A stretch of DNA of 64,000 nucleotides from assembly GCA_900316955.1 (NCBI GenBank), contig ONEX01000012.1, positions 39,971 to 103,970 on the forward strand, read 5' to 3'. Made by a program: the position numbers and the translations under genes. The number at the start of each line of letters is the position of its first letter. Position 1 is the stretch's first letter. The DNA is from an uncultured Bacteroidales bacterium. GTDB taxonomy: Bacteria > Bacteroidota > Bacteroidia > Bacteroidales > UBA932. Below are positions 40,945 through 49,011 of the stretch, piece after piece. The notes under the pieces are model-generated. The model was not told the origin of the DNA and made no database searches. It saw nothing but the letters and a program-made list of their open reading frames with translations.

Positions 40945-40996
40945 CCCCCCTCAGGTGCCCTTCGGGTGCGCCCGAGTGCTCCTCAAGTGCGTCCAA

Positions 40997-41088
40997 GTGC
41001 TCGTACAGGTCCATCGACGGGACCCATACAAGCAAAAACACCCCCAAAACGCCCGTACCGGTCCCGCACCTGGACCTGTACGGGCACT
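40997..41088. repeat. REP copy A: double-hairpin repeat of the RAYT family
   Basis: Left unit GTGCTCGTACAGGTCC-ATCGAC-GGGACC at 40997-41024, with a decayed right arm CATACAAGCA, then spacer AAAAACACCCCCAAAA. The right unit (41049-41088) is inverted and has a variant arm, CCTGTACGGGCAC. Same structure as copies C and D around the transposase. Short AAGTGC/GAGTGC echoes precede it (40975-40996). Confidence 0.8.
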
Positions 41089-41095
41089 CGACATC

Positions 41096-41130
41096 GCCCC
41101 CCCTCCTCCTCCTCCGCCGCCGCCGCCCTG
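41096..41130. repeat. CCT/CCG triplet-rich low-complexity tract
   Basis: A C-run, then four CCT-type and four CCG-type triplets. Simple repeat between two larger elements; no coding role seen. Confidence 0.7.
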
Positions 41131-41134
41131 CCGG

Positions 41135-41267
41135 CCGCAATTGCGGAAAAACGGCCTTACGACCTACCCGAACTGCAAATGCGGCCGCATTGTTGGCGAA
41201 AAACGCCCTTTTCCTTGCCGCAATTGCACACAGGGCGCCCTGCCTCACGCTTTTTCCGCAATTGCGG
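41135..41267. repeat. CCGCAATTGC element X: 133-bp MITE-like repeat
   Basis: Ends are CCGCAATTGCGGAAAA and its inverse (TTTTTCCGCAATTGCGG), i.e. terminal inverted repeats built on a 12-bp palindrome. An internal third core lies at 41218-41227 (TTGCCGCAATTGCAC). Core spacing 83 and 38 bp, against 85 and 38 bp in copy Y at 49026-49160. Shared inner blocks include GCAAATGCG and CCCTTTT. Confidence 0.75.
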
Positions 41268-41317
41268 CGGGTGGAAGGAGAAGGAAAGGAGATGATATAC
41301 TATTCCAACTTTTTGTA

Positions 41318-41325
41318 TATCTTTG
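41318..41325 (+). promoter_or_regulatory. TAnnTTTG -7 box of the MORN/TonB gene
   Basis: TATCTTTG, 26 nt before the ATG at 41352, in AT-rich sequence that begins the lower-GC patch. Confidence 0.6.
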
Positions 41326-41351
41326 TGATGCACCTTTATTCTTAGATTAAG

Positions 41352-42143
41352 ATGTCAGTCATTGTTGCCATATTGCTTGGTTTATCTCTTTCCCCTCAAG
41401 TTGATACGCTTCGCCTGGAACATGGAATGTATGTGGGCGAGATGCCTATGGGTGAAGGTAAACTCTATCATGATGAGCAAGGAATCTATATCGGGCGGTT
41501 CAATCGGGCGGTCATTTCCGGCCGGGGAATGCATTTCGAGCCCGACGGCAGCAAGTATGTCGGAAATTTCGTGCAAGGTGTGGAACAAGGTTACGGTCGA
41601 TACTTTATGCGTACGGGGGCTGTCTTCTGTGGTGAGTTCAGCCATGGATACCCCAATGGGCGGGACACGCTCTTCTATCCCGATGGGCGGGTTTTCATCG
41701 GCATTGTCCAGAACAGAGGCGCCACCTCACAGGGCAAGACCTACAAGAATGCACAAGCGGCCGGGGTCACAAAACCCGTATTCCCCGATGTCCAGTTGAG
41801 CGAAGAAGACCGCGCTTTCCTGGAGAACGTCAAAGCGAACGATGTCGATATGGGGCCCGTTTTCAAGGATGGCGTGTCTTTCTTCGAGGCATACATCGCT
41901 CCCCATTTCAGGGTTTCGCCATCGATGTCCGGCCGGTCTGCCGTGGTCCATTATGAGTTCACGGTGGGTGAAGACGGCAAGATCAGCGACGTCACCATTA
42001 CCTCTTCCACGGATAACGCTTTCGCCAACGAATTGGCCCGGGTCATCAAGCATTCGCCCAAATGGAAACCGGCCATGAAAGACGGAAAACCGGTCCCCTA
42101 CACCATCAAGAACCAAACGGCGCATTTCGGCCAGGTTGATTAA
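41352..42143 (+). CDS. MORN-repeat protein with TonB C-terminal domain
   Basis: 263 residues. A hydrophobic N terminus (about 1-14) may be a signal. MORN-type repeats cover about 24-130 (YVGEMPMGEG, YIGRFNRAVISGRG, YVGNFVQGVEQGYG, FCGEFSHGYPNG). A linker leads to a TonB C-terminal domain at about 190-258 (VHYEFTVGEDGKISDVTI, PKWKPAMKDG). Such Bacteroidetes proteins are annotated as TonB-like, but here the usual Pro-rich periplasm-spanning segment is missing. Base composition is lower in GC than the flanking operons. First gene of a run of four reading in the same direction. Confidence 0.8.
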   Translation: MSVIVAILLGLSLSPQVDTLRLEHGMYVGEMPMGEGKLYHDEQGIYIGRFNRAVISGRGMHFEPDGSKYVGNFVQGVEQGYGRYFMRTGAVFCGEFSHGYPNGRDTLFYPDGRVFIGIVQNRGATSQGKTYKNAQAAGVTKPVFPDVQLSEEDRAFLENVKANDVDMGPVFKDGVSFFEAYIAPHFRVSPSMSGRSAVVHYEFTVGEDGKISDVTITSSTDNAFANELARVIKHSPKWKPAMKDGKPVPYTIKNQTAHFGQVD

Positions 42144-42197
42144 TATCCTCGTCGAGGAAGATGTGTTTTCATTAATCTAAGAGTATCAAGGACTCCT

Positions 42198-42377
42198 ATG
42201 GAACAAAACAAACAACTCAAAGTGGGTTTGATCATCGCGCTCGTTTTTGCCCTTTTCTTTGCGTGCATGTTGGGCTATTTCATCGCTGTCAAGAATCTGT
42301 GGATGTGCGTAGCCATGGGGGGCATGGTCATTTCGTGCTGCGCCAGAATCATTCAACTGTACATGAAAATCAAATAA
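42198..42377 (+). CDS. Small two-TM membrane protein (59 aa)
   Basis: ATG at 42198, TAA at 42375-42377. The protein begins MEQNKQLKVG and has two hydrophobic segments (about 9-29 and 34-50) with a short loop (VKNLW). It ends in a basic tail (YMKIK). Preceded by a purine-rich stretch but no strong Shine-Dalgarno. It lies 54 bp after the MORN gene and 16 bp before another two-TM gene, with which it probably forms a pair. Family not recognised. Confidence 0.6.
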   Translation: MEQNKQLKVGLIIALVFALFFACMLGYFIAVKNLWMCVAMGGMVISCCARIIQLYMKIK

Positions 42378-42393
42378 TCAACTTTACCGTACT

Positions 42394-42621
42394 ATGGCAT
42401 TGGACAGTGAACAGAAAAGGGTGCTGAAGGCTGGTTTGCCTGCCAGTCTTGGAGCCGTTTTGGGAACTATTGTTGGAATGCTTGCGCAAGGCAAGCTGGA
42501 CTCATGGAAAGAAGCGCTCATCGGAATCGGTGTTGGCCTTCTTTTCGCTCTTCTTTTCTGCGTTTTCTATGTTCTCGGCTCCAAGATTCCGAAGAAAAAC
42601 GACGATTCGGCGAAGGAGTAG
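42394..42621 (+). CDS. Small two-TM membrane protein (75 aa)
   Basis: Two hydrophobic segments (about 12-31, with GAVLGTIVGML, and 41-61) and a charged C terminus (KIPKKNDDSAKE). The gene starts 16 bp after the other small membrane protein gene and ends 17 bp before REP copy B. Not recognised; low GC like its neighbours. Confidence 0.6.
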   Translation: MALDSEQKRVLKAGLPASLGAVLGTIVGMLAQGKLDSWKEALIGIGVGLLFALLFCVFYVLGSKIPKKNDDSAKE

Positions 42622-42638
42622 ACGCAGCTGTCATCCAA

Positions 42639-42666
42639 GTGCTCGTACAGGTCCATCGACGGGACC
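42639..42666. repeat. REP copy B: single left unit
   Basis: GTGCTCGTACAGGTCC-ATCGAC-GGGACC, identical to the left unit of copy A, but the right arm has decayed (GATCGCGATACCAG). It sits between two genes of the low-GC patch. Confidence 0.75.
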
Positions 42667-42716
42667 GATCGCGATACCAGAAGAATTGACCAGAACGAAA
42701 CAATCATTCGAGAACA

Positions 42717-43406
42717 ATGAAACGATCCTTCCCATTTGTACTCCTATTGCTTCTTTCCTTACCGGTATATGCGCAGGAAAGCGTGTCCATCGCGACATTT
42801 CTCAAAATCAAAGGTGCTGATAAGACAGCGTACTCGGTGAAGGGTGTCCTTGCCGAAACTATCCGCCAGGAAGAATTGGTCTTTCTCTTGCGGGATGATA
42901 GCGGGGATCTTGTTTTCAAGCTTTCCGATGATGGTCCGGAAGCCGCCATGGCATTCCGTTCGTCGGAGATTGTCCCCGGAGACACTTTGACAATCTCCGG
43001 AATGCGGAAGAGAATCTTCATGAAAGGAGAAAGAACGAGAGTGGGAATGTATCCTGGCACAGTGGTCAACCATATGGAAGGTCCCAATCATGCCGCACTG
43101 GCCGCGAATTGGAGTCCTTCCTTTCGAGGACGCGGGAAAGCATATTTCTCCGAATGGGTCAATCGGCATTTGAAATATCCGCCCGAATCCAAGAAAAGGA
43201 ATTCTCAAGGCCCCGTGGACTTGACTTTCATTGTAAACGAAGATGGAAGTGTTTCAGACATCATAGTTGTCCATTCATCCGGAGATTCACTATTGGATGC
43301 AGAAGCCGTGCGAGTGGTATCCTCTTCACCACGATGGTTCCCTGCCATCGTTGAAAATGAACCCATCAAAGCAACTTTCAATTTTACTGTCATATTCGCA
43401 CTGTAG
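42717..43406 (+). CDS. Secreted protein with OB-like and TonB C-terminal domains
   Basis: 229 residues. Signal peptide 1-19 (LPVYAQ). A small-beta, OB-fold-like domain covers about 25-110 (YSVKGVLAETIRQEELVFLL, SEIVPGDTLTISG). A TonB C-terminal domain covers about 140-225 (FSEWVNRHLKYPPESKK, VDLTFIVNEDGSVSDIIV, PRWFPAI). No membrane anchor after signal cleavage, so it is a periplasmic soluble protein, not a classical energy transducer. One 60-base stretch I counted (42721-42780) has 26 G/C, against 40 in 43681-43740 of the next gene. Confidence 0.75.
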   Translation: MKRSFPFVLLLLLSLPVYAQESVSIATFLKIKGADKTAYSVKGVLAETIRQEELVFLLRDDSGDLVFKLSDDGPEAAMAFRSSEIVPGDTLTISGMRKRIFMKGERTRVGMYPGTVVNHMEGPNHAALAANWSPSFRGRGKAYFSEWVNRHLKYPPESKKRNSQGPVDLTFIVNEDGSVSDIIVVHSSGDSLLDAEAVRVVSSSPRWFPAIVENEPIKATFNFTVIFAL

Positions 43407-43411
43407 ATTAA

Positions 43412-44302
43412 ATGCGACATAAAACCATCCTTTTCACCTTGAGCCTGGCGGTGCTGGCGGCGTGCGGGCCGATGGCGCGGACGGCGCGGCAGGTGGCCGC
43501 GGCCCCCGCGCAGGAGGCGACCGCCGCGACCGCCGACTGGGTATGGACCTACAGCCAGGCCCATCCGGACGGGTTCACCGTGGACATTCGCGGTCGGAAG
43601 GCGCTCACGGAAGGGATTTCCGTCGCCTACGCGGCCACGCAGGACAAGCATTCGAAGGAGGACCTCGGGGACGTGGTTTCCCATGCGCTGGCGCACGACG
43701 GCTATGTGGGCGGCTGGTGGAACAGCGAGGACAGCCTGTATTATTTCGACAGCGTGCGGATCCTTCCGGAGAGCGCCGCCGGCGAGGCCGTTACTTTCGC
43801 CCTTGAGAATGAGCAGCTTGCCTTCTATGTGCTGTCCACGGGCGAGGAAGTCCGCATCGACAATGTGATCCATCCGCACGAGTACGAGCCCATGGACCTT
43901 CGCGGCTGGACCACCGTCTTCCTGGCCGGCACCATCGACAATGGCCACAGCGAGGACTGGCAGCAGACGGTCGCCGCGAAGCTCGCCGGGCGGGATCGGC
44001 GGTACCTGCTCTACAACCCCCGCCAGGAAGAATGGCACCCCGAGCGCAAAGGCGAGATGGACTTTCAGGTCCATTGGGAACTCGAGCACCTGGAAAAGGC
44101 CGACCACATCCTGATGGTCTTCCTCCCGGGCAGCCAGTCCCCCATCACCCTCCTGGAACTCGGCCTCCACGCCCGCAGCGGCAAACTCCTCGTCGTCTGC
44201 ACCCCCGGCTTCTACCGCTACGACAACGTCCGCCTCACCTGCGCCCGCTACGGCGTCCCCGTCTATGGGTCGCTGGACGAGGCCCTCGAGGCGCTTCCGT
44301 AG
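43412..44302 (+). CDS. Lipoprotein with nucleoside 2-deoxyribosyltransferase-like domain
   Basis: 296 residues with a lipoprotein signal (Cys18, VLAAC). The C-terminal domain (about 167-296) has FLAGTID (170-176), the YNPRQEEW segment and SPITLLELG with the likely catalytic E249, as in nucleoside 2-deoxyribosyltransferase-like enzymes (PF15891 type). The N-terminal domain (about 53-150; GFTVDIRGRKALTEGISVAY, VGGWWNSEDSLYYFDSV) resembles a domain I associate with phage and mobile-element proteins; that link is from memory and weak. A surface or periplasmic location is odd for a nucleotide enzyme. High GC, unlike the gene before it. Confidence 0.7.
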   Translation: MRHKTILFTLSLAVLAACGPMARTARQVAAAPAQEATAATADWVWTYSQAHPDGFTVDIRGRKALTEGISVAYAATQDKHSKEDLGDVVSHALAHDGYVGGWWNSEDSLYYFDSVRILPESAAGEAVTFALENEQLAFYVLSTGEEVRIDNVIHPHEYEPMDLRGWTTVFLAGTIDNGHSEDWQQTVAAKLAGRDRRYLLYNPRQEEWHPERKGEMDFQVHWELEHLEKADHILMVFLPGSQSPITLLELGLHARSGKLLVVCTPGFYRYDNVRLTCARYGVPVYGSLDEALEALP

Positions 44303-44318
44303 CGAGATGCCCCTCTAG

Positions 44319-44409
44319 GTGCTCGTACAGGTCCATGGACGGGACCTATACAAGCAAAACACCCCAAAAATGCTCGTACAGGTCCATCGGCGGGACCGGT
44401 ACGAGCACT
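44319..44409. repeat. REP copy C: double-hairpin repeat on the 3' side of the RAYT
   Basis: Left unit GTGCTCGTACAGGTCC-ATGGAC-GGGACCTATACAAGCA, spacer AAACACCCCAAAAA, right unit TGCTCGTACAGGTCC-ATCGGC-GGGACCGGTACGAGCA. It ends 23 bp before the transposase stop codon. Differs from copy D at about six positions in 92. Confidence 0.9.
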
Positions 44410-44432
44410 GAGACCTTCGCGGATGCGGGATT

Positions 44433-45302
44433 TCAGACGCTGTCCATCATCCGGGCGGCCGCTTCATAGGTGAGGCCGGTCACGCGGGCGATTTGATGGA
44501 CATTGGAGCAGAAACGCCGTTGGACCTGGCGGAGGGATTCTGTCTTCTCCTCAAGTGTCAGTTCCTCGAAGTTCTGCTTTCCGAACAGACTCCGGTAGAG
44601 GTCCGGCAGGGCGGCCAGGATGACCTGGTCTCTGAAGGCCGGATGGTGGTCATCGGCATTCTGGATCTTCCGTTTGGCCTTGGAGGAGTTCACCAGAAAA
44701 TAGTTCATCCGGCTGGCCCGGTGATAGCAACGCTCCACAAACCCCACAGCCACATACGATTCAGGAAGGATATACCCTTCCTCGGAGACCAGCCAATCGG
44801 CAGGAAAATCCTCTTTGCAACAATGAAGCAGCCGGATCCGGGCCCGCTTCGACAGGCTCCCCAGGGGCTTCCCGGACCGCTTCGTCGCGTTGAAGAATAC
44901 CGGACCCGTCCCCCACGGATACTGCGATGGATGGGAGCAGATGTTCGCCGCCACGCTGTTCATCTGCGTGTAGGCAATCGCCTTCTCCAACCCCTCATTC
45001 AGCGTGGACACCTCTTCGATGGTGACCTTGTTCCGACGAAGGAATTCGGCAGTGCCGTATTTGTGGTTCAAATACTTGGAATAACGGCTTTTGATACCGT
45101 TGATGAAAGCCTTGACATCCGCCCATCTTCCCTGGACGACAAAATGAAGATGATTGGACATCAGAATGAATGCAAGAACCGTCACTTTGGATTGATACGC
45201 CTGGATGGCTACGAAATTCATCCCGGCCCGGAAATCGTTCTCGTCCCGAAACCAAAGCCCCTCTTTCAGATGTTCCGTCGTGACCAGATAATATTTTCTC
45301 AT
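44433..45302 (-). CDS. REP-associated tyrosine transposase (RAYT, Y1/HUH family)
   Basis: 289 residues from the ATG at 45302. HUH motif in MSNHLHFVVQG (H51-L-H53). The catalytic tyrosine is Y111 in AYTQMNSVAANI, followed by the PSQYPWGTG segment that matches the Y(I)xxNP...YPWSS pattern of RAYTs. A C-terminal helical region (VHQIARVTGLTYEAAARMM) is typical of the group. RAYTs cut and join single-stranded REP hairpins and are thought to have spread them through genomes. This one is flanked on both sides by direct copies of a REP pair. Intact, no frameshift; GC moderately below its neighbours. Confidence 0.9.
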   Translation of the reverse strand: MRKYYLVTTEHLKEGLWFRDENDFRAGMNFVAIQAYQSKVTVLAFILMSNHLHFVVQGRWADVKAFINGIKSRYSKYLNHKYGTAEFLRRNKVTIEEVSTLNEGLEKAIAYTQMNSVAANICSHPSQYPWGTGPVFFNATKRSGKPLGSLSKRARIRLLHCCKEDFPADWLVSEEGYILPESYVAVGFVERCYHRASRMNYFLVNSSKAKRKIQNADDHHPAFRDQVILAALPDLYRSLFGKQNFEELTLEEKTESLRQVQRRFCSNVHQIARVTGLTYEAAARMMDSV

Positions 45303-45399
45303 ACGCCTCAAAATCTATCTTCACAAAAGTAAGGAATTGCCTGTAATCCTGCAAGCCCTTATCTGCAGTTTGGTAGAGAAAGTGCAATAGCCCCCCCGG

Positions 45400-45491
45400 G
45401 TGCTCGTACAGGTCCATTGACGGGACCTATACAAGCAAAAACACCCCAATAATGCTCGTACAGGTCCATGAGCGGGACCTGTACGAGCACT
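45400..45491. repeat. REP copy D: double-hairpin repeat on the 5' side of the RAYT
   Basis: Left unit GTGCTCGTACAGGTCC-ATTGAC-GGGACCTATACAAGCA, spacer AAAACACCCCAATAA, right unit TGCTCGTACAGGTCC-ATGAGC-GGGACCTGTACGAGCA with perfect arms. On the minus strand the left unit still folds fully through two G-U pairs. Same orientation as copy C, 98 bp upstream of the RAYT start. CCCCCC tracts precede copies A and D. Confidence 0.9.
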
Positions 45492-45515: not shown

Positions 45516-46949
45516 TTAAAGCACCAGCGTATTGAGCGACCCAGCCGGTAAAGTAACGGTGCGGGGGTGGCCGGGAAGGCCATCCACCGACACGTTTTTC
45601 GGGGCATCGGACTGATTCGCCAATAGCAGGACCGTTCGGCCGTCGGGGTTCAGGAAGGCCAGGGCGTCGGAGTAGGTGCCGCCCAAGGTGAGGACGCGGG
45701 CGCCGGGCTGGACGTAGTGCGTGAGGTGCTTGAAGACGTAGAATTCCGGGGAATAGCGGAAGGTCTTGTTCTCCTTGTCCACGACCACGAGGGAGTTCTG
45801 GGTCCATCCCCACGTGCTCACGCCTCCTTCCAGCAGGGAGGTGTTCCAATAGAAATAGCTCTGGACACCGTTGCCGATGTAGTGCTTCATCAGGTCCCAG
45901 CTGTGCATGGCGCCGGCCCAGTCGTTGCGGCCGTCGCCGCACTCCTGCTCCGTCTGGTAGCACGGAAGCTCCGGATGCCTGCGATGCAGTTCCGGCAGCG
46001 CATCCTTTCCGGCCCACTGGAAGCCCATGCCCTTGATGCAGGGGCCGGCCTCCGGATCGGTGAGGATGCGGTCCCACAGGTCAGGATCGGCCCGTTCCAT
46101 GGTGCCGAGGTACACATCGACCCCCCGGGAAGCCATCTCGGGACCGAGATACGTGATGAAGGCGGCGAGCCCTTCCGGGGTCCAGGTGCAGGCGGGATAC
46201 CACTGCGCCGAGTTCGGCTCGTTCTGCGGCATCACCATGAAGACATCGACCCCTTCCGCCTTGTAGGCATCGATGAACTTCCCGAAATAGCGGGCATACG
46301 CCTCCAGGTAGGCGGGATCCTGGTTGAAAGCGTCCACGCCTTCCGGAATCTGCCTGTCTTCCGGCAGGAGGTTATCCTCCATCCGGTCCTGCATGCCGGC
46401 CCAGCTGCGGAAGATGACACTGGCCGATGTGTTCGCATAGTGCTTGTTCACCTTCATCCACGACGGCGGGCACCAGGGCGAGGCCCAGATGCGCAGGGAA
46501 GGGTTCACGGCCTTCGCCGCCCGGATGAACGGAAGCAGCGTCGCCCGGTCATGGTCGATGGAAAAATGCTCCAGCGCCAGGTCGCCATCCACATCGTCAT
46601 AGGAATAATAGTCGATGCTGAAGTCATTGGAACCCAGCGGCATGCGGGCCATCGTGAAGTTTGCGCCCGCGGGGGTGTACAGTTCCTGGAAGATAGACGC
46701 GCGGTCCGCCTCGGAGAGCTCCGACAGCGAGGTCCATCCCAGTTCGTTGAAGCAGGAACCGAACCCTTCGACCGCCTGATTCAGGGCCTTGAGGTCCACG
46801 ACGACGGAAGCCTCCGCCGGCGCATCGGCCTCGACCGCCTCCATCACCTGCCAAGGATTCTCAAACGTGGTCGATACCCACTCGACCTTCGCGGCGCGCT
46901 GGCAGGAAACCACCGCGAGCAGCGCGAGCCCTAAAAAACGCGTTTTCAT
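45516..46949 (-). CDS. GH30 glycosidase, lipoprotein
   Basis: 477 residues. Lipoprotein Cys16 (VVSC). Clan-A barrel with the acid/base E244 in MPQNEPNS and the nucleophile E334 in YQTEQECG; the FGSCFNELGW and ARMPLGSNDFS segments fit GH30. The C-terminal beta domain ends in NTLVL. Family activities include beta-glucosylceramidase, beta-1,6-glucanase and xylanase; the subfamily cannot be fixed. Second gene after a GH43 lipoprotein (7-bp gap), so both probably act on the same glycan. REP copy D follows its stop codon. Confidence 0.9.
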   Translation of the reverse strand: MKTRFLGLALLAVVSCQRAAKVEWVSTTFENPWQVMEAVEADAPAEASVVVDLKALNQAVEGFGSCFNELGWTSLSELSEADRASIFQELYTPAGANFTMARMPLGSNDFSIDYYSYDDVDGDLALEHFSIDHDRATLLPFIRAAKAVNPSLRIWASPWCPPSWMKVNKHYANTSASVIFRSWAGMQDRMEDNLLPEDRQIPEGVDAFNQDPAYLEAYARYFGKFIDAYKAEGVDVFMVMPQNEPNSAQWYPACTWTPEGLAAFITYLGPEMASRGVDVYLGTMERADPDLWDRILTDPEAGPCIKGMGFQWAGKDALPELHRRHPELPCYQTEQECGDGRNDWAGAMHSWDLMKHYIGNGVQSYFYWNTSLLEGGVSTWGWTQNSLVVVDKENKTFRYSPEFYVFKHLTHYVQPGARVLTLGGTYSDALAFLNPDGRTVLLLANQSDAPKNVSVDGLPGHPRTVTLPAGSLNTLVL

Positions 46950-46956
46950 CGGATGT

Positions 46957-49011
46957 CTATTTCAAAGTGAATGTCTTCGTTTTACCCCTGTACGTGCACC
47001 GCACGACGCGGGCGTCCTGGTCGATGGCGACCTGCACGGACTTCGGCGCCTTGACGGCGATCTTGCCGGTCACGCCCGACGGCACGGCCACCTCATAGAA
47101 CGTATTGTCCGTCAATCCGTTCTGCTCCGTCGTCCAGACGGGGTGCGCGGGCATTTCCAGCGTCTGGCCGCCGACGGAGATCTTCACGGCCGGCGGGACG
47201 GGGAATTCCATCTTCTGCCCCTTCTTGGTGAATCCGAAGCCCATGACGTCGCACAGGGGCTCCCCGGCAGGGCCTTCGGCCACGAGGAACAGGGCGTGCT
47301 TGCCCGTCAGGCCATCGACGGCATCGCCGACCGATACCGTATATTTCGTGACATCGGCCGGAGCGCCGGCGGGGATTTCCACTTCCCCGACCTTCGTGCC
47401 GTTCCAGGCGCCGCCTTCCCAGGGACCGTCGATCCAGACGCCCACCTTGAAGGACTGCGCCGTGCGGGCGGCGACGAACAGATTGAACACCGTCCCATTG
47501 CCGGGGCGCACGCCCTCGAACGCCGGCAGGCCGGGCGCGCCCTCGGGCAGGCCGCCGAAGCCGATGTACTTATACCCCAGGATATCCCCGGCCTGCACCT
47601 CGGTGATGTCCATCCGGTTGTCCCAGACATCCCAGCCGTCCTGGATCGAGTTCGGGTTGGAGAGATAGCAGGCATAGCCCGCGGAATAATAGCGGTACGG
47701 CGGCAGGCCGTAGATGAAGAAACCCTCGGAAGTCACTTCCGCGCCCCGGTACTCGGAGCCGTCAGAGGCCTTCACCGTGAAGGCGCCCTTGTACGGGTCG
47801 TAGGCGGTAATCCGCACCACGCCGCCTTCGGAAACCGGCTTCTCATCGGCCTGGACGGCCACCGGGGCGACCATCGACTGGCGGGCGAAGCCGAAGCCGC
47901 GCGGGGCGCGGTGATAGAACACGTACCACTGGCCGTTGATCTCCGCCAGCGAGCCGTGGGTGTTGTTGTCGCCGAAATGGGTCTCCAGCGCGGAGCCGTC
48001 GCGGGACAGGACCGGGCCGCGGGCGTCCACGAGGACGCCGCCGCTCTTCCAGGGCCCGCGCGGCGTGTCGGCATAGGCATACCGCAGCGTCGCATTGCTC
48101 TGCGTCAGGCCGTATTCCTGCCCGGAGAAACCGCTGTAGAGATAGATATACTTATTTCCGATCTTCCGGAACGAGGAGGCCTCATAGAACTGGAAATCGT
48201 CCAGGTCCTCCCCCGCCGCCACGGCCGGGAACTCGATCTTCTCGCCCTCCCGGATGCCGGCCCACTGGACGTGCTGCTTCAAATCGTCGGCCACGGCCTG
48301 TCCCTTCGGAAGCTTCGCCAGATAGGACGTGATCATGGACGGAACCCAGAACGGGTAGTCCGGTTTCCCGTAGCGGGGCGTAAACATCGTATTCTGGTCC
48401 AGTTCCGTCGCGCTGGCCCGCTGGATGCCCCAGGCGCCGTAAGCCCGGAAACCGATGGCATAATCCGGATCGGCAGGATCGTCGACCTGCTCGACCAGCA
48501 CGCCCGGGTCGAAGCCCATGATGCTGCCGGGCGCGAGCTTCCCGTCCTGCACGTTCAGCACCGTGAACGGGCCGTCCGGACGGTCGCCGACGCACACCAT
48601 CGGCGTATGCATCAAGGCGTGCGGATACAGGTAATACTTGTGCGAGCCGTCGTCCCGGCGCATCACCTCCACGAGGTCCGGCGCATAGACCGTGCTCATA
48701 TTCCCGTTTTGCGTGTACGTGAACACCGGGCCCTCGTCCCGCCAGGCGGTCAGGTCCTCCACCGGCGCCGACCATTGACGGTCATCCTGTCCGCAGTAGC
48801 TTTCCACGCGCGTGTCGTGCGAGCCCGTCACATAGATGCGATAATGACCCGGGTTGTCCGGATCCTCGAACACCCGCGGCTCCCCGTCCGGCACGTGCTC
48901 CCAAAGGGGCAAGTACGGATTGCCAATGAAATCAGCGGTCTCCGGCTGAACCCGGACGCAAGAAACAACGGCCAGACACAAGGCCAACAAAAAGAGAGAA
49001 AACTTTGCCAT
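46957..49011 (-). CDS. GH43 five-bladed-propeller glycosidase with C-terminal CBM6-like domain, lipoprotein
   Basis: 684 residues. Lipoprotein Cys18 (VVSC). The beta-propeller occupies about 30-400: EPRVFEDPDNPG with the catalytic base aspartate, APDLVEV, FYEASSFRKIG with the general acid, and THGSLAEINGQWYVFYHR. A beta-sandwich of about 130 residues follows (GYKYIGFGG, FNLFVAARTA, VGVWIDGPW), like CBM6, then a short Ig-like end. Family activities are arabinofuranosidase, xylosidase and galactosidase types. First gene of the GH43-GH30 pair. Confidence 0.88.
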   Translation of the reverse strand: MAKFSLFLLALCLAVVSCVRVQPETADFIGNPYLPLWEHVPDGEPRVFEDPDNPGHYRIYVTGSHDTRVESYCGQDDRQWSAPVEDLTAWRDEGPVFTYTQNGNMSTVYAPDLVEVMRRDDGSHKYYLYPHALMHTPMVCVGDRPDGPFTVLNVQDGKLAPGSIMGFDPGVLVEQVDDPADPDYAIGFRAYGAWGIQRASATELDQNTMFTPRYGKPDYPFWVPSMITSYLAKLPKGQAVADDLKQHVQWAGIREGEKIEFPAVAAGEDLDDFQFYEASSFRKIGNKYIYLYSGFSGQEYGLTQSNATLRYAYADTPRGPWKSGGVLVDARGPVLSRDGSALETHFGDNNTHGSLAEINGQWYVFYHRAPRGFGFARQSMVAPVAVQADEKPVSEGGVVRITAYDPYKGAFTVKASDGSEYRGAEVTSEGFFIYGLPPYRYYSAGYACYLSNPNSIQDGWDVWDNRMDITEVQAGDILGYKYIGFGGLPEGAPGLPAFEGVRPGNGTVFNLFVAARTAQSFKVGVWIDGPWEGGAWNGTKVGEVEIPAGAPADVTKYTVSVGDAVDGLTGKHALFLVAEGPAGEPLCDVMGFGFTKKGQKMEFPVPPAVKISVGGQTLEMPAHPVWTTEQNGLTDNTFYEVAVPSGVTGKIAVKAPKSVQVAIDQDARVVRCTYRGKTKTFTLK

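Follow-up and report, generated by a model that had tools for sequence, protein, structure and literature searches.

Does a transposase gene that lies between two copies of its own hairpin repeat travel with them as a transposon, or does it sit in the chromosome and serve a dispersed family of repeats? The question is raised by a 64,000-nt stretch of DNA (the window) from an uncultured Bacteroidales bacterium of the UBA932 lineage (assembly GCA_900316955.1, contig ONEX01000012.1, positions 39,971 to 103,970). There, a first-pass annotation placed a gene for a REP-associated tyrosine transposase (RAYT) between two same-orientation units, each with two hairpins of the repetitive extragenic palindrome (REP) type. 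In Proteobacteria, such genes, which carry the HUH motif and a catalytic tyrosine (HUH/Y), are bracketed by REPs, each RAYT having a private REP family with which it coevolves (Nunvar 2010, PMC2817692). Our analysis makes it quite probable that the window holds a REPtron: a chromosomally settled RAYT, that is, an HUH tyrosine nuclease related to IS200/IS605, together with double-hairpin units of its own, small in number, which resemble REP doublets forming hairpins (REPINs).

Results

The RAYT gene and its repeats

The annotated arrangement of gene and units was recovered (Table 1), with the same count of identical positions between the two bracketing units (86 of 92 aligned columns). Each of them consists of two hairpins, whose 15-bp arms are built around TGCTCGTACAGGTCC and whose loops are 7 nt long. 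As annotated, the right-hand hairpins are perfect (45453-45489) or carry one mismatch (44371-44407), and the left-hand ones are complete on the minus strand only: in both units, two G-T pairs are needed to complete the second hairpin of the RAYT-coding strand, and these are C-A mismatches on the opposite strand. Allowing 3 mismatches at most, the window has 20 occurrences of the arm pattern where 1.6 are expected, and none of 100 shuffles reaches 20. A third full unit and a truncated hairpin (Table 1) continue the array past the annotated span. Each of the three full units, on either strand, folds 5.7-8.7 standard deviations below dinucleotide shuffles; both bracketing units fold as two hairpins and the third unit as one long hairpin.

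The protein combines the HUH motif and the catalytic tyrosine in an IS200-like fold, as is characteristic of RAYT/TnpA_REP proteins. H54, H56 and Y114 (numbered from the TTG) are invariant in alignments of 40 and 53 rows, and the AlphaFold2 model (predicted local distance difference test score, 87) has E. coli TnpA_REP (4er8) as its top structural match. The protein matches Pfam Y1_Tnp at 6e-6, NCBIfam REP_Tyr_transpos (NF047646) at 42.7 bits, under the curated cut-off of 80, and transpos_IS200 at 15.5 bits, below the cut-off of 55; NF047646 is matched at E <= 0.001 by 40 of 40 aligned subfamily members. The tyrosine (Y) motif reads Y-x-x-M/T-N-S/C in 39 of the 40 rows and has N-P in one. The start codon is more likely the ATG (45302) than the TTG (45311). 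Among six RAYT orthologues, the ratio of nonsynonymous to synonymous divergence (dN/dS) is 0.11-0.30, with dS up to 0.72. By these sequence measures the window RAYT is intact, conserved and under purifying selection.

Table 1. Coordinates of the RAYT gene, the REP units and a related site, in window positions
Feature	Position	Strand	Remarks
RAYT/TnpA_REP-type HUH nuclease gene	44433..45302	minus	ATG start, 289 aa; in-frame TTG start at 45311 too
Double-hairpin REP unit upstream of RAYT	45400..45491	minus	hairpins 45401-45437 and 45453-45489
Double-hairpin REP unit downstream of RAYT	44319..44409	minus, same orientation	hairpins 44320-44356 and 44371-44407
Third full double-hairpin unit	40997..41088	minus, same orientation	3.2 kb from the bracket; 79/92 columns shared with the 45400 unit
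Truncated single REP hairpin (half unit)	42639..42669		in relative G011 the half-unit side directly adjoins a full doublet
Site without REP unit in the window and in G069	46930..46960 (between 46936 and 46957)		one REP doublet there in G064 and G003

Copies of the repeat and the range of the subfamily

Further copies of the unit, whose absence would have spoken against the first-pass annotation, are present on several contigs of the draft source assembly (3.13 Mb, 38 contigs), so that its intact RAYT with matching REPs stands: the gene is flanked by REPs that recur elsewhere in the genome, as in other RAYTs. Three full units lie on the window contig, one on C12 and one on C8; C36, C33, C18 and C34 carry half units or single hairpins, and C20 has a remnant. 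Beyond these places, R1, a covariance model of the window clade's unit built from 17 units of five of the six clade genomes, adds a weaker unit on C23 (49.9 bits). The window REP is present at about ten places, which is a lower bound because several copies are at contig ends (those on C8, C33 and C18 within 500 nt of contig starts). The genome encodes RAYT-like proteins at 14 places (E <= 1), and four of these belong to the same subfamily. The subfamily RAYTs on C35 and C12 are each bracketed by their own units with other stems, found at six and five places at E <= 0.01 (both-strand matches counted once), and this one genome carries three such RAYTs with three different REPs. Our doublet finder detected both flanking units for C35 and one for C12, whose second unit came from a further search; beside the subfamily RAYT on C15 it detected no doublet.

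Relatives were compared with one genome per species. A RAYT match at E <= 1e-5 is present in 166 of 200 sampled genomes of the genus, and near-orthologues (85-97% identity, one partial) occur in G064, G003, G011, G069 and G126, all at the same locus. All 24 matches to R1 of at least 80 bits fall in the six genomes with an 85-100% identical RAYT (the window's included) and none in the other 194, a restriction that is partly by construction because R1 was built from five of these genomes. The weaker R1 matches elsewhere, among those inspected, mostly have the same scaffold with other stems. In a family sample, 120 of 299 genomes and 9 of 25 genera match at E <= 1e-40, many at 150-210 bits, which are sister groups. 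In a phylum-wide sample, only the window's own genome among 395 has the subfamily at E <= 1e-30. Going by these protein matches, the subfamily is lineage-bound in our samples. The 80 named loci that were kept of 312 relatives have titles of Bacteroidales or Bacteroidia except for one Clostridia, and the hosts named in record titles are ruminants.

A conserved scaffold with a variable stem

Structure in the unit appears to be under selection, as the first-pass annotation expected covariation to show. We aligned 24 units from 23 genomes, found with R1. The foot (TGC), the apex (GGTCC) and the spacer edges are fixed, and columns 8-14 and 60-66 are variable; many units have a GTGC foot and a GGTCC apex around 7 variable stem pairs. 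In the GTGC foot, column 4 is G in 14/24, column 7 is C in 15/24 and the mirrored column 94 is C in 22/24. In the two-hairpin model 89.8% of cells are paired and changes on both sides of a pair number 170 versus 58.8 in shuffles and at most 42 in slid versions. The pairing level is biased upward, since R1, which was used to find the units, carries the structure; the both-side changes are not explained by it. The unit as one long hairpin is backed almost as well (86.3% of cells paired, 166 both-side changes, covariation 0.526 versus 0.184 shuffled), because the four arms share one sequence. The doublet is thus, like a REPIN, an inverted repeat able to form a single hairpin.

The first-pass annotation had also suggested strand-specific recognition from the G-U pairs. 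The asymmetry holds in the window's orthologue group (29 G-T, 1 A-C) and disappears over 42 loci with that group reduced to one (89 G-T, 75 A-C; p = 0.31), and we dropped the family-wide strand rule. By eye, the dispersed copies L010 and L012 show both G-T and A-C.

REP sequence follows the cognate RAYT

We compared the REPs of 46 bracketed RAYTs between loci. Under 60% protein identity, REP similarity does not exceed background (medians 10.5 to 11.5); at 65-80% identity the medians increase to 23.5 (n = 6) and 30.5 (n = 11), and above 80% (n = 9) similarity is high, with a contribution from shared flanking DNA; the two flanks of one locus have a median similarity of 66.75. With orthologue groups collapsed (n = 40, all at most 79% identical), rho is 0.26, which none of 2000 permutations reaches, and related REPs are found in 7 of 10 pairs at 70-80% identity versus 18 of 742 under 60%. 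Moreover, the RAYT flanks of the own genome are the best match for 34 of 59 dispersed units, with at least one such unit in 10 of 20 genomes. These 59 are a hand-chosen part of the R1 list plus two from the window's genome; three units inside RAYT flanks were dropped beforehand, and window-clade units were compared with their own genome alone, the other five clade genomes being left out. With fewer RAYT loci and without these exclusions, the count was 17 of 53. This relation between REP and RAYT bears on another explanation, that the repeats are structures selected by the host (transcription ends, RNA stability or nucleoid sites) and the link to the RAYT is a relic, the RAYT having some other job on single-stranded DNA. 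The window units are intergenic by the list of open reading frames, six dispersed sites have counterparts across species and the RAYT is under purifying selection, all of which would fit. REP sequence tracking the cognate RAYT is, however, unexpected for a general host role, and about ten copies or fewer are few for one, so we consider this explanation very unlikely.

REPs can also outlive their gene, as two genomes suggest: in G111 (L317) the matching RAYT is in pieces, with a REP doublet beside the remnant and dispersed copies still in the genome, and in G045 (L318) a doublet adjoins a C-terminal RAYT remnant.

Direct brackets and the position of the gene

The direct bracket is the rule where a bracket is found. 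Direct similarity between the two flanks exceeds the 99th percentile of 1,320 cross-locus comparisons at 46 of the 88 subfamily loci whose flanks both extend for at least 250 nt. When direct or inverted similarity is counted, 48 of 89 loci pass, 45 of them direct, and with orthologues collapsed 41 of 76 pass, 39 of them direct (sign test, 8e-10). The 89th locus, L045, is partial (its contig ends inside the gene, its start is misplaced and its upstream side is unusable) and is absent from the collapsed counts. The separate doublet finder (null rate 78 per 423 kb, at a lower threshold) gave at least one flanking doublet at 47 of 90 loci and doublets on both sides at 18. On its outside the doublet ends in (A)GTGC feet that mirror each other (in one analysis the filter demanded TG at two of the four ends), and its inner ends are A/T-rich; the loops show no preference (66 direct versus 69 inverted of 168). 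The doublets bracket the gene in direct orientation and the hairpins inside a doublet resemble an inverted pair.

Such geometry could mean a single-strand transposon of the IS200/IS605 kind, in which RAYT and units excise and insert together and the other doublets are internally deleted copies; independent insertion of units would give direct orientation in about half of the loci, not in 45 of 48. Such an element moves as a unit and leaves near-identical copies at unrelated sites, which we did not observe. We examined the 24 pairs of RAYT genes that are at least 76% identical in nucleotides. In 22 of them a flank of more than 190 nt is shared on one side or both; the other two both involve L045, and no similar RAYTs with unrelated flanks were found among the assessable pairs. 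The window locus is syntenic in the five relatives whose region was compared, and the low dN/dS of the RAYT points the same way. With one genome per species very recent moves could escape this comparison. We dropped movement of the whole cassette, on the shared flanks and the shared position of orthologues, and regard the transposon as unlikely.

A settled REPtron leaves room for movement of the units alone, and the first-pass annotation had called the pair possibly active or recently active. Little of this is borne out: the RAYT is at the same place in five relatives, REP copy number is low and the six dispersed sites are shared. Going by alignment coordinates, each of the six is matched in one or two further species, often with a half unit or remnant in one; L290, L019 and L023 have none among the compared loci. 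At the one site seen both filled and empty, the last in Table 1, no target-site duplication was readable by eye. A relative with the neighbouring GH30 gene and no RAYT was also sought, and no usable empty site was found.

Several observations weigh against a REPtron as described above. The bracketing repeat is under the threshold at 41 of 89 loci. The units were found via a model trained on the window clade and hand-picked from its list, and GTCC, present in at least 2 arms at 33 of 47 loci with a flanking doublet, is missing from all arms or all but one at 14. Of the dispersed units, 25 of 59 do not rank their own genome first; in G159, 10 of 10 fail, all inside a longer composite repeat. At L056 and L060 the RAYT DNA is 81% identical and the flanking hairpins differ (TGCGGAAGACGTCCC and TGCTCCTAGGGGTCC), possibly by a switch of REP address. 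Occurrence of the repeat at equal frequency in genomes without this RAYT, which the first-pass annotation named as contrary evidence, was not seen for R1 matches of at least 80 bits, as given above. G090 and G017 both have at least one unit with the window-clade stem on contigs of 3 and 6 kb, and the RAYT identity there is at most 51%. The direction of gain or loss at 46936-46957 is blurred, because the window GH30 gene (Pfam; 45516-46949) shows signs of a possible allele exchange: it is 90% identical to that of G069 versus 81-82% to those of G064 and G003, the rest of the locus being nearer to the latter two. At a second polymorphic site, G064 has lost a unit and flanking bases kept in G003; this difference is a deletion, because G000 keeps a remnant.

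Discussion

How a RAYT chooses its own REP is partly known: recognition by RAYT groups 2 and 3 involves the GTAG foot, loop, bulge and stem (PMC8266576). Because of the fold match to 4er8 and this established knowledge of TnpA_REP, the window RAYT is likely to work on single strands in folded form, via a covalent tyrosine step, the foot tetranucleotide helping in the choice of the cut. The RAYT would bind the folded single-stranded unit, recognise the shared foot and apex as well as the private middle of the stem (7 bp, as an address), nick near the foot via Tyr114 with GTGC as a guide, and hand the nicked unit to a new site. If it reads the private stem middle and passes the unit on, one RAYT would therefore serve one REP family. 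The C-terminal domain may have a role. Movement of units would be slow, and the RAYT seems not to have moved with its bracket over the time sampled. More tentatively, and with less than even odds, the RAYTs of one family of rumen Bacteroidales could be a radiation with a fixed hairpin scaffold and an exchangeable 7-bp address read by the cognate RAYT alone, with several mutually orthogonal pairs together in one genome at about ten copies or fewer each, and same-strand brackets tying each RAYT to its address.

Private REPs and RAYT-REP coevolution are already known (Nunvar 2010), and the window system is, compared with that account, a lineage-specific form of a known kind. It shares with the REPtrons of Proteobacteria the bracketed HUH/Y gene, private and coevolving REPs and their clustering near the gene, but differs in that the GTGC foot lies within the stem, the places number about ten or fewer, and whole doublets form a direct bracket (PMC2817692). 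The flanking REPs described there are inverted, whereas the doublets here are direct with mirrored outer feet in each, so the outer hairpins may still face each other. As in REPINs (Bertels and Rainey 2011, PMC3116915), a doublet with mirrored outer ends is the dispersed unit and can form one long hairpin; unlike in REPINs, each REP is itself a near-perfect 15-bp palindrome, and therefore covariation backs the pair of short hairpins as well as the single long one. The canonical REP has a 5' GT[AG]G foot, in contrast to GTGC here, and usually, though not by strict definition, more than 100 copies per genome, in contrast to the lower bounds of about ten, six and five.

TnpA_REP subclasses 2.4 and 2.6 are present in Bacteroidetes (Quentin 2018, PMC6006769), but their Y motifs (YIxNNP and YIH[QN]NP) differ from the rows here. 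The feet of subclass 2.4 are GT[AG]G, not GTGC; subclass 2.6 has REPs without GT[AG]G, as here, but a median length of 179 aa versus 292. Subclass 2.1 has a C-terminal helix-turn-helix (DnaA_C-like) domain, which the helix-turn-helix-like tail here may resemble; its Y motif is YIELNP or Y[IV]HLNP against N-[SC] in our 39 of 40 rows, and no REPs were found for it, whereas REPs are present here.

What appears new, as far as limited searches show, is the occurrence in this Bacteroidales lineage, a stem whose middle varies within a constant scaffold, the small number of copies, direct bracketing by doublets as the rule and the coexistence of several pairs in one genome; in a limited search of the open-licence literature in PubMed Central, no paper dealt with RAYTs or REPs from rumen Bacteroidales. 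Between many related pairs the main difference is a short segment of the stem, the scaffold staying constant, and a single genome holds three of them, which makes recognition directly testable. These pairs form a natural set of enzymes and DNA hairpins, in which sister proteins of 65-80% identity can be compared. Low copy number and shared genomic sites also mean a RAYT under purifying selection with few REPs to serve.

Finally, REP units are sites of local deletion and lie at the deletion ends: in G011 the doublet is joined directly to the half-unit side and region 40946-44432 is partly missing, and G069 has no match to that region, downstream REP unit included. Between the REP copies, gene content differs from relative to relative; the window has two TonB_C-domain genes there (41352 and 42717) and a Nuc_deoxyri_tr2 gene (43412). 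The hairpins of G159 (L265-L274) have the stem TGCGCGTACAGGTAC and are part of a 200-460 bp composite repeat that contains tandem sub-units of 71-72 bp, and at L092 and L095 tandem arrays of hairpins of about 51 nt (TGCGGGAGATGTGAC) lie next to the RAYT.
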